Shown here piece by piece: positions 30,993 through 36,481 of a stretch of DNA of 64,000 nucleotides. How positions within the stretch are numbered: the first letter of the stretch is position 1; each line of letters opens with the position of its first letter. The stretch comes from Truepera sp. (GTDB taxonomy: Bacteria > Deinococcota > Deinococci > Deinococcales > Trueperaceae), in the NCBI GenBank assembly GCA_032027045.1, contig JAVSMU010000001.1:1747924-1811923 (forward strand), read 5' to 3'. Both the position numbers and the translations under genes were made by a program. A model generated the notes under the pieces. It searched no databases and was not told the DNA's origin. It saw only the letters and a program-made list of their open reading frames with translations.

Positions 30993-31094
30993 TTACCTCT
31001 GGGAGAAATGCACCCCTGCAAAACCAATCAACGGCATGCTAACGAGGACCGCAAAAACAACCGCAGCGAAGATGCGCTTTCCAGTGTTCTTCAT
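30993..31094 (-). CDS. 33-residue hydrophobic peptide, signal-peptide-like
   Basis: The frame reads MKNTGKRIFAAVVFA then VLVSMPLIGFAGVHFSQR: a basic start, one hydrophobic helix and a short polar C-terminus. It is too short for most gene finders. GGAAGG lies 13 bases upstream of the ATG, and a hairpin terminator follows the stop. An operator-like dyad and a TTGACA box lie about 100 bases upstream. It could be an exported signalling peptide, a small membrane protein or a hydrophobic toxin; sequence alone does not decide. Longer in-frame starts at 31193 exist but would cut into the upstream promoter region. Confidence 0.5.
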   Translation of the reverse strand: MKNTGKRIFAAVVFAVLVSMPLIGFAGVHFSQR

Positions 31095-31192
31095 CCCAAA
31101 CCCATCCTTCCAATGGCCGCCTCTTGGGCGACTCATACCGCTCAAGGCTTCCCTAGCCTCTGGAGACGGCTGCCGGGTAGAATCCCCCAGCA

Positions 31193-31214
31193 CGCTATGT
31201 CAATCTGCATAGCG
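31193..31214. promoter_or_regulatory. 22-bp dyad overlapping a -35 box upstream of the peptide gene
   Basis: CGCTATG, eight bases, CATAGCG forms a perfect 7-bp inverted repeat. On the minus strand TTGACA (31203-31198) lies within it, pointing toward the peptide gene; the -10 is weak (TTCTAC or CTACCC). This is the classical layout for a repressor site. Confidence 0.5.
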
Positions 31215-31451
31215 CTTCTATGGTCGAAGGGATTTGTCAGCGGAACATGTAGCTCCCGACTCCTCCCACCCTCTTCCAACCCCGCACCACTCCCATGATG
31301 CGAACCGAACCATTGGTCTCCCAACCAGGTCGATTGCGCTAGACCATATCAGGTCACGGGACAATTTGCAAGAACATGTAAGGCCGATTTGCACCGATGC
31401 CGACACATAAATCCCGTCCCTATAGCAAATGAGGCGGGCGTCGTCGTCGAG

Positions 31452-31480: not shown

Positions 31481-31539
31481 CTGCCACTAGTGATTCACTT
31501 GACACCCAGCGCTTCAGAATTGCTGACGGATTGCGGACA

Positions 31540-33222
31540 GTGAATGCACCCGTGGAAGCTAGCCGCCTCCATGTGGAGGAGCTAATTCAGGAGAAGTTCC
31601 CCGGCGTAACACTTGAAAGCGAAGTTCAGGGATGGGCTTTCCTTGAGCGCTTTGAAGATGGGATACAAGCATTCCTAAGAATCCAGCAACCAACCGCGAA
31701 GGACGACCGTTGGGTGGGCGTGTGCTACTTCCAGACCTTGAGAGACATGGAAGCGCTGGAAGCCTTGTATAGGGCGACGAACCGGGGTGAGGAGGGCGCG
31801 AGGGTCTACTTGGCGCATGTCTTACCGTTCGTCGAGCGCCGAGAAGACGCCCTAATCGAAATGTCTCGGATTAACATCAGTTTGCTAAGCAATTATGACG
31901 CTGCTCTCTACTATCGAATACTTAGCATTAGTGAGGAGACAAGCGGCCATCTTAGAGAGGCTCTAAAGGCCGCGGAAACCGCCTGGCGGCTTATTCAGGG
32001 CGTACCAGAATACAATGTCCTGGCACCCTCCATCTTGGTCCAATTGGCGGTCCTTCATGGGCGCATCGGCAGGTCACAGCGGGCGCTGTGGTTCCTTGAG
32101 CGAGGCCTAGTCGGCACATCGGGCGTAGAACGATTGAAAGTGAAGATTCGACTTGCCACTGTACTCATAAATCTTGGGCGCCACAGGGAGGCACAAATTG
32201 AGGCCGACTCAGTCGATCTCCAGAATGCCCCCCCCTCGTTTCAAGCCGAACGAAACTGGCTCCTAGGCGAAATCGCCTGGGCAAACGGCAGCATGAACCT
32301 CGCCATCCAGCACTACACGGAGGCCATAAAGCTAGCCACCGAGCTCCAGTTCTCCTACGAGGAGTTCCTCTGCCGTCTGCCGTTGGTCTGCATCCTCGGC
32401 GTTCGCGGCGACTACACCGAGGCCCTCAACCACCTCATGCGGGCCCAAACGCTCATCTCCGACAAGTCGGATAGGCTCACCTTCCGCTTCCGCGAGGTTC
32501 TACTCAACTACTGGTCCAAGCGCTACACCGTCAGCCACGCCCTACAAGAATTCGAGGGGCTCATGCAGGCCTTCGGCGAGATGGGCCTCCTGCAGGAGCA
32601 GGCCGCGGTGCGGCTCCACTACGCAGACCTGCTCCGCGTGAGCGGCACCGACGACTGGCAGCGGCAGCTAGACGAGCTGCACGCCCTTAGCGTGTCGCTT
32701 CAGAACCAGGCCTTGCTGGCCCGCGAGTGGACGCTGCTGCCCGAGCTGCGCCAGATCGCGTTCCGCACCCACCCGCGCATCGCCGGCACGGCCGTGCAGG
32801 TGCTCGAGATCTTCACCATGGGCGACGAACGCATGCTCCTCGACGACAAGCCCGTGCACATCCCCCTTCGGCGCGGGGTCGAGCTCATGGCCTACTTCCT
32901 CGAGAACAAGGCCGTCTCCCTGAAGCGCGTGCTGCTCGACGTCTTCCCCGACGAGAAACCGTCCGCGGCTAAGTCGTACTTCCACCAGTTCCGCCACCAG
33001 TTGCGCGAGGCGCTCGAAGGCGTGGAGATAGAGTACGACTCCGAGTCGAAGCTCTACCGCCTCAACAGCGAGATCGACGTGCTTTGGGACGTGAGCGAGC
33101 TGCGAGCCGGCCGCATCATGGGCGAGACGGGCATCTTCCTCCCCTCCTCGGGCAACGAGTGGGCGTACCGGGTGGATCAACAGCTCGACGACCTCCGCAC
33201 CAACGGAAATGACGGCGGCTAG
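31540..33222 (+). CDS. TPR-containing regulator with C-terminal winged-helix domain
   Basis: About 560 residues. Residues 100-420 form TPR-like helical repeats (for example HLREALKAAETAWRLIQG and NLAIQHYTEAIKLATEL). The C-terminus (LEIFTMGDERMLLDDKPVHI, then RRGVELMAYFLENKA and FHQFRHQLREAL) matches the winged-helix part found in SARP/BTAD regulators, here at the C-terminal end. GTG 31540 has ACGGA nine bases upstream; a TTG at 31531 is also open. Base composition changes inside the gene near codon 245 (about 32,270), from mixed to strongly GC-rich, as if the 3' part were native and the 5' part imported. Confidence 0.75.
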   Translation: MNAPVEASRLHVEELIQEKFPGVTLESEVQGWAFLERFEDGIQAFLRIQQPTAKDDRWVGVCYFQTLRDMEALEALYRATNRGEEGARVYLAHVLPFVERREDALIEMSRINISLLSNYDAALYYRILSISEETSGHLREALKAAETAWRLIQGVPEYNVLAPSILVQLAVLHGRIGRSQRALWFLERGLVGTSGVERLKVKIRLATVLINLGRHREAQIEADSVDLQNAPPSFQAERNWLLGEIAWANGSMNLAIQHYTEAIKLATELQFSYEEFLCRLPLVCILGVRGDYTEALNHLMRAQTLISDKSDRLTFRFREVLLNYWSKRYTVSHALQEFEGLMQAFGEMGLLQEQAAVRLHYADLLRVSGTDDWQRQLDELHALSVSLQNQALLAREWTLLPELRQIAFRTHPRIAGTAVQVLEIFTMGDERMLLDDKPVHIPLRRGVELMAYFLENKAVSLKRVLLDVFPDEKPSAAKSYFHQFRHQLREALEGVEIEYDSESKLYRLNSEIDVLWDVSELRAGRIMGETGIFLPSSGNEWAYRVDQQLDDLRTNGNDGG

Positions 33223-33286: not shown

Positions 33287-33371
33287 TAAGATCGCCCTTG
33301 ATCGGAAAGAGCTTGGGTTGAGAAACAAGCACCCGGAGTGCCGTTGGGAGCGGCTTCTGTACCGGGTGCTT
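33287..33371 (+). terminator. hairpin terminator downstream of the TPR regulator, possible short RNA
   Basis: Stem AAGCACCCGG/CCGGGTGCTT (33327-33336 with 33362-33371) encloses an inner GCCG/CGGC stem and is followed by CATTTATG. It probably ends the regulator mRNA, about 100 bases past its stop. An extended -10 (TGCTAAGAT, 33284-33292) just upstream could alternatively start a short RNA of about 75 bases that ends here. Confidence 0.5.
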
Positions 33372-33469
33372 CATTTATGCTCCGGTTCCGGCGTTGCATG
33401 TGCATGCGTCACGGTCGGGCGTTTGCCCTAAGGATTAGTTTCGGGTTCGTGAAGGCCCTGGAGCGCCTT

Positions 33470-33590
33470 GTAAGAATCTCGTAATAGGACGCCCGTAGGC
33501 TGGAGCCGTGGACTTGAGGTAAATCTCCCAATACCTCTTCCCACCCTCTTCCGAAACGAACCCCGCGCCTCCCACGCGGGGTTCACCCAT
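33470..33590 (+). ncRNA. candidate small RNA unit A (tandem sibling of unit B)
   Basis: The unit opens with a direct repeat of GTAA at 33470 and 33481 (11-base period), then TAGGCT at 33496-33501 as a likely -10. The predicted RNA from about 33508 has a GAGGTA/TACCTC stem, a single-stranded C-rich strand (TCTTCCCACCCTCTTCC) and a perfect 10-bp hairpin GAACCCCGCG/CGCGGGGTTC (33558-33584) as terminator-like 3' end. No protein frame is conserved between the two units. The repetition of the whole layout in unit B supports a functional RNA; the promoter and ends are inferred. Confidence 0.5.
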
Positions 33591-33680
33591 TTGGTGGGAA
33601 TCATGTGGGCGTTCATTGGTGGTGCCTCTGCCCCAAGAAACTGCTTGCCAACGGGCGCGGCTGCCGCCGCAAGACGCAAA

Positions 33681-33801
33681 GTAAGAATTCTGTAAGGCGT
33701 GGCTCGTAGGGTAGAGGCGTGGAACCGAGGTAAGCCTCCCATTACCTCCTCCCATCCTCTTCCGATCTGAACCCCGCGCCTCCCACGCGGGGTTCACCCT
33801 T
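33681..33801 (+). ncRNA. candidate small RNA unit B (tandem sibling of unit A)
   Basis: Exactly 211 bases after unit A every element recurs: GTAA at 33681 and 33692, TAGGGT at 33707-33712, a first stem that is one pair longer (GAGGTAA/TTACCTC), a C-rich strand containing ACCTCCTCC, and the identical 10-bp hairpin (33769-33795) followed by ACCCTTTG. The sequence between elements has drifted while stems are kept. ACCTCCT equals the anti-Shine-Dalgarno end of 16S rRNA, so the RNA could pair with ribosome binding sites. Its last bases lie about 95 bases before the rpsA promoter. Confidence 0.5.
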
Positions 33802-33896
33802 TGTGCATGGCTTCGTGCACGGGTCCGGCGGCCGTTCCAGCGCCTAAACGGCGCTCGGAAAATGTCGACTGGTGCTACAAACCGTGCGCGGCGTCC

Positions 33897-33970: not shown

Positions 33971-36481
<2,511 letters not shown>

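Follow-up and report, generated by a model that had tools for sequence, protein, structure and literature searches.

Introduction

In Listeria, LhrC1-5 form a multicopy, LisRK-controlled set of small RNAs (sRNAs) whose CU-rich sites lie in a stem-loop, a single strand and the terminator (PMC4132741). The csRNAs of Streptococcus, which belong to the CiaRH regulon, repress the pheromone precursor comC by pairing around its translation start (PMC4507080), and in Bacillus the stand-alone RNA RosA sponges RoxS, its G-rich regions pairing with C-rich sRNAs (PMC8216469). In alpha-r14/NfeR1 and the cuckoo RNAs, repeated anti-Shine-Dalgarno motifs are left unpaired and the stems are variable (PMC10746234).

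The locus described here was found in a 64,000-nucleotide stretch of the genome of an uncultured Truepera sp. (the window), in which two units, A and B, lie upstream of rpsA (Table 1). A first-pass annotation had read them as a pair of sibling small RNAs, each behind a promoter, that match no known family. By analogy, LhrC and the pneumococcal csRNAs would be the functionally closest systems. The anatomy is almost that of LhrC, as nearly all members have three C-rich sites (a CUCCCA loop, a linker and a CUCCCA/U terminator loop), but this is a likeness of layout only, and the motif CUCCCA and a small-peptide leader as target are features of the present RNAs. Like the csRNAs, they are multicopy siblings behind an 11-bp-period direct repeat of OmpR type, a motif found in 27 of 29 members. 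Where the csRNAs target comC, ribosome-site complementarity to the mRNA of a 33-residue peptide is seen here in several genomes, the pheromone role of this peptide being putative. The csRNAs belong to another phylum and no Rfam relation to them was found; hairpin loops in the target leader and a sponge-like RNA are particular to this locus. The latter, whose function is putative, resembles RosA, copies the UGGGAG loop of the target and is adjacent to the sRNA in two genera. Unpaired anti-Shine-Dalgarno motifs and variable stems are shared with alpha-r14, which has three hairpins each with CCUCCUCCC whereas two hairpins with CUCCCA and a linker are found here.

No Rfam family matched units A and B at gathering or permissive thresholds, in agreement with the first reading; for LhrC the result at gathering score is relevant only if Rfam holds an LhrC model. 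The candidate alpha-r14 (ar14, RF02344) reached 20.3 and 16.2 bits against a gathering cut-off of 58.8 and was rejected, and it had no match in ten homologous loci. As homology to LhrC, the csRNAs, RosA/RoxS or ar14 is not indicated, a new family with a new target arrangement is proposed. A literature search for Trueperaceae found no structured sRNA family. The present work adds one, supported by covariation, together with an sRNA-target pair backed by intermolecular covariation, which goes beyond target prediction alone. The peptide-mRNA leader, the sponge-like RNA, a remote paralogue and the recognition of a probable response-regulator site in the upstream repeat are additions to the first-pass annotation.

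Table 1 Features of the locus, with positions in the window
Feature	Position	Strand	Evidence or remark
33-residue peptide gene, MKNTGKRIFAAVVFAVLVSMPLIGFAGVHFSQR	30993..31094	-	conserved, always 33 aa
Ribosome-site element GGAAGGATGGG of peptide leader	31101-31111	-	
Peptide-mRNA leader	31095-31336	-	complementary to sRNA
Linear leader site, predicted to pair with sRNA linker	31259-31283	-	-40.3/-44.9 kcal/mol
UGGGAG hairpin loops in leader	31318-31323 and 31290-31295	-	
Promoter-like -10 of peptide mRNA, TATGGT	31343-31348	-	part of 31095..31348 element
TPR protein with C-terminal winged-helix-like domain	31531..33222	+	divergent from peptide gene; predicted TPR fold like RapJ, NprR
Sponge-like RNA	33287..33378	+	homologues in G003, G005, G019; duplex versus shuffles
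-10-like TAAGAT of sponge-like RNA	33287-33292	+	predicted start ~33300
Hairpin of sponge-like RNA presenting UUGGGAG (33344-33350)	33327-33371	+	
Unit A direct repeat GTAAGAATCTCGTAAT, putative response-regulator box	33470..33485	+	-38 to -23; placed alike in 27/29 family members
Unit A -10 box, TAGGCT	33496..33501	+	TANNNT at -12..-7 conserved in family
sRNA unit A	33508..33594	+	fold z -4.8; covariance model 106 bits; covariation
Unit A stem-loop 1 with CUCCCA loop (33525-33530), then C-rich linker	within 33508..33594	+	
Unit A terminator-like hairpin with CCUCCCA loop	33558-33584	+	
Unit B direct repeat GTAAGAATTCTGTAAG, putative response-regulator box	33681..33696	+	repeat test; family-wide placement
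Unit B -10 box, TAGGGT	33707..33712	+	TANNNT conserved in family
sRNA unit B	33719..33805	+	fold z -5.1; covariance model 110.5 bits; covariation
Unit B stem-loop 1	33727-33748	+	followed by free strand CUCCCAUCCUCUUCCGAUC
Unit B terminator-like hairpin	33768-33796	+	
rpsA (ribosomal protein S1)	33971..36481	+	downstream neighbour, outside sRNA units

The sibling units and their RNA family

Units A and B form a direct repeat (33470-33591 and 33681-33802) of 122 nt with 80% identity, offset by the 211 nt that had been noted; the 2.92-Mb genome contains no other pair of strong copies. A remote third paralogue was detected by covariance model at G000:C1:838054-838127 (29.5 bits). The elements described in the first-pass annotation were recovered in both units: direct repeats with an 11-bp period, of which 0.02 would be expected by chance in the window, TAG-type -10 boxes, a first stem and a common 10/11-bp C-rich hairpin. 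Folding was far stronger than that of dinucleotide shuffles.

Two details had to be revised. Stem 1 is indeed longer in unit B (7 bp against 6 bp), but this is due to a one-sided change and not to a compensated pair; compensatory changes are visible only at the level of the family, not between units A and B. The anti-Shine-Dalgarno strand ACCTCCTCC is present in unit B at 33744-33752, but its first half is inside stem 1 and the free strand is therefore shortened to that given in Table 1. The linker presented by the sRNA is CUCCCAUCCUCUUCCGA.

Homologues were clear in a DNA search of relatives. A covariance model built on seven sequences, a search suggested by the first-pass annotation, matched homologous units in 27 of the 39 Trueperaceae genomes with E values of 1e-4 or lower; a genome of the same genus (G004) was without a match, and other families of the order gave marginal scores only. 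A pattern scan of a genome collection returned 33 stretches. Of these, 14 were confirmed by the model, each of them bearing the label Trueperaceae, Deinococci, Deinococcales or Deinococcota; the remaining 19 were not confirmed and were dismissed as chance matches.

In a 29-member alignment, which was fitted to the model and is thus biased toward the structure, standard pairs were found in 96.3% of cells (33-52% for slid structures), both helices covaried, with 12 of 17 pairs altered on both sides, and the covariation score was twice that of shuffles. RNAalifold alone recovered nearly the same structure, and covariation is evident in the raw sequences too (GAACCCCGCG/CGCGGGGTTC versus GGGTTTCGTG/CACGAAACCC). 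Conservation is highest in the loops: loop 1 reads CUCCCA and the terminator loop CUCCCA/U. Behind the terminator hairpin, AT-richer genomes have a clear U tract and GC-rich ones only short U tracts. At the level of sequence, therefore, units A and B belong to a real, structured small-RNA family that occurs in several gene contexts.

The repeat lies upstream of rpsA in four genera, and it could be argued, as the first reading itself had allowed, that it is merely duplicated rpsA promoter or leader DNA. Many members, however, are far from rpsA. The unit also ends with a conserved terminator-like hairpin, and rpsA retains a separate -10-like element near its start. Since members adjoin rpsA in some genera but lie at unrelated loci in others, they are not rpsA leader DNA; the duplication was ruled out on these homologues, and we regard it as extremely improbable. 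The reading of the units as sibling small RNAs, each transcribed from a promoter of its own, is supported by the homologues, the covariation and the conserved promoter anatomy.

Promoter and putative regulator

A repeat close to GTAAGAATNNNGTAAG (GTAAG-N6-GTAAG) begins 34-40 nt before the predicted start in 27 of the 29 members and is accompanied by TANNNT at -12 to -7; shuffled upstream sequences seldom match as well. Exact GTAAG-N6-GTAAG sites number 38 in the 39 family genomes, against one for the reversed control. The promoter motif of the family, like its structure, is shown at the level of sequence. PhoB/OmpR-type activators typically act from an 11-bp direct repeat that replaces the -35 box, and CiaR, a member of the OmpR family, binds an 11-bp-period direct repeat at the csRNA promoters, although the sequence of its repeat differs from GTAAG-N6-GTAAG. 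A PhoB/OmpR-type response regulator, postulated from the motif, probably activates the sRNAs via this repeat over the -35 region.

Complementarity to the peptide mRNA

A scan of the window for complementarity to the linker led to 31259-31285 on the minus strand, in the leader of a 33-residue frame 2 kb from the sRNA genes; no other non-self site in the genome comes within one mismatch of the linker complement. The leader mirrors the sRNA, with UGGGAG hairpin loops, a G-rich site and a complementary ribosome site. Ten leaders contain UGGGAG 34 times, against 2.25 expected and a maximum of 8 in 500 shuffles, and stems of 4 bp or more enclose 24 of these 34 copies (33% of background positions). 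The leader stems differ (GGU/ACC, GGGAU/AUCCC, CCGGU/ACCGG) while the loop is unchanged, and both sRNA loops match the leader loops perfectly in genus after genus.

Every leader tested has a site for the linker of its own sRNA at -27 to -45 kcal/mol, energies that leave accessibility aside, the leaders being tightly folded. The preference for the cognate leader was equalled by only 7 of 5040 permutations of the sRNAs among genera; in G013, G015 and G020 the cognate pair was not the best in its row. The sRNA of G010 has the unusual sequence CUCAACCCAUCC, to which GGAUGGGUUGAG at the ribosome site corresponds, with compensatory bases of the type CUCAACCC with GGGUUGAG. In G030 CCCGCC of the sRNA meets GGCGGG, the sister genomes having CCCACC/GGUGGG, and in G013 UUUCUCUUCC in the sRNA corresponds to GGAAGAGAAA in a leader-like region at which no peptide was recognised. 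The ribosome site is also complementary to the sRNA in G003, G005, G010 and G019, whereas G020/G027 show a weak match or none. The sRNA gene is away from the peptide locus in G003 and G005, and the incomplete genome G034 has the leader and the peptide and no sRNA match. Judged from these sequences, the sRNA-leader complementarity co-evolves, and the sRNAs appear to pair with the peptide mRNA.

We consider it likely that A and B are two-component-induced sRNAs that repress the peptide mRNA by pairing with its leader and ribosome site, and that a sponge RNA titrates them. A signal would act through a two-component regulator to give the trans-acting, C-rich sRNA copies of ~85-90 nt, each from its own promoter. 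With CUCCCA in two hairpin loops, and with the linker, they would meet the divergent peptide mRNA as their main local target: the loops would kiss the UGGGAG hairpin loops of the leader and the linker would pair with the upstream G-rich site and the ribosome-binding site, so that translation would be blocked and less peptide made. The neighbouring RNA, with its UGGGAG loop and antisense 5' segment, would titrate the sRNA and set a threshold. In this scheme we infer transcription, the identity of the regulator, the kissing contacts, the direction of repression and the function of the sponge.

The sRNAs might instead be broad anti-Shine-Dalgarno regulators, the peptide leader being one target of many and its UGGGAG hairpins binding, for example, a CsrA-like protein. 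Many ribosome sites could pair with a CUCCC motif, the CsrA motif is GGA in loops, and four genomes share a second conserved site, located in the 5' UTR of a PAS-GGDEF gene. In G002, G003 and G005 this site, UCGGAAGAGGACGGGAG, stands ~124-131 nt upstream of the start (-34 kcal/mol), and the genome studied here has a weaker version of it, which makes the PAS-GGDEF mRNA a candidate second target. Genome-wide, however, TTGGGAG is not enriched before start codons (57 occurrences, control 51), and we therefore do not claim a broad set of targets. The intermolecular covariation of the linear sites and the perfect agreement of the loops across genera also speak against such a broad role, which seems unlikely. 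Searching the family for an uninterrupted antisense site with the pattern GGAAGAGNGNNGGGAG gave no signal. In three relatives the PAS-GGDEF gene is divergent from a thioredoxin-reductase-like gene.

The sponge-like RNA

The putative RNA at ~33300-33378, between the TPR gene and unit A, looks from its sequence like a sponge, a built-in antagonist of the sRNA. Its 5' segment GATCGGAAAGAG is complementary to the sRNA linker, as is its 5' end, GAUCGGAAAGAG. Homologues lie directly behind the TPR gene in G003, G005 and G019, in the first two of these though the sRNA gene is elsewhere. In G005, 22 consecutive sRNA nucleotides pair, with bulges on the sponge side only. Full-length duplex energy did not discriminate between this RNA and shuffled sponges, since shuffles without a hairpin bind more readily; cofolding and 5'-segment tests were used instead. 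Binding equal to that of the 5' segments was reached in 0-26 of 2000 shuffles, and in structure-aware cofolding in 0 of 100 shuffles for four of five pairs and 7 of 100 for unit A. The promoter-like -10 is conserved as judged by eye only.

Alternatively, the roles might be reversed, both the peptide leader and the sponge-like RNA being decoys that titrate an sRNA with its real targets elsewhere; the peptide mRNA would then be an mRNA-derived sponge. Transcript-derived sponges are known (PMC8216469). The strongest leader site is ~165-190 nt before the start codon and is joined by extra loop sites, more than the blocking of a ribosome site would need. Against this, the complementarity extends to the ribosome site itself in the four genomes named above, including the genome-specific match, and we hold reversed roles to be very unlikely.

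The peptide and its TPR neighbour

The peptide has exactly 33 residues in ten genomes, with invariant MKN, GKRIF, AG and final R and a variable C-terminal hexapeptide, for example VHFSQR, after AG. Its gene is upstream of the same TPR regulator in nine of the ten; in G034 the contig ends. The structure of the TPR protein, predicted with good confidence (mean pLDDT 81), is a TPR solenoid followed by a less confident C-terminal winged-helix-like domain. Among the PDB matches listed, target cover was best for RapJ with its peptide (TM 0.73), then NprR (0.65), both by target length; many other TPR proteins match the predicted TPR fold with similar E-values.

The sequence of the peptide is signal-peptide-like and it is possibly secreted. 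A type I toxin fits less well than a signal peptide, in view of the constant length, the variable hexapeptide and the Rap-like neighbour. RRNPP systems encode a TPR receptor and a short secreted peptide together; here a TPR protein and a putative signal peptide are predicted from sequence and fold. The order of domains differs from that of PlcR and NprR, the DNA-binding-like domain being C-terminal in the present protein. The structural model suggests that the 33-mer and the Rap/NprR-like protein are a candidate peptide-signalling pair; a literature search for the lineage did not find such a pair described, and its exposure here is a further outcome of the analysis.

A full circuit for Deinococcota can be put forward tentatively: a two-component system would induce the sibling sRNAs, and these, by kissing of loops and by pairing at the ribosome site, would silence a secreted peptide signal for which the Rap/NprR-like TPR protein is the receptor and transcription factor; a dedicated sponge RNA would be encoded between receptor and sRNA. 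If true, the Streptococcus logic of a two-component system, a multicopy C-rich sRNA and a peptide precursor mRNA would have arisen independently in Deinococcota, and the sponge and the mirrored target hairpins would be additions to it.

Related elements

A second, related RNA subfamily has the core CCUCCACCAUCUCCUCUCUUUG plus GACCCUGCGCCCCCCACGCAGGGUC and includes the remote paralogue. It stands behind a GTAAG box in some genomes and occurs as three tandem copies in G014; the complement of its core, sought in the genome studied here, gave only the core itself and one site with three mismatches. In the same genome the GTAAG box is also present upstream of a type IV pilin-like gene and a lipoprotein gene, and its occurrence before type IV pilin-like/pseudopilin genes and a lipoprotein gene suggests an envelope/pilus regulon. 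Another short unit, a GTGGTGGTC...CCCCC hairpin with a T run behind it, stands after the box in two genomes and may be an additional small RNA. Two relatives carry one or two further copies of the 3' half of the sRNA terminator immediately downstream of it, with a period of ~40 nt.
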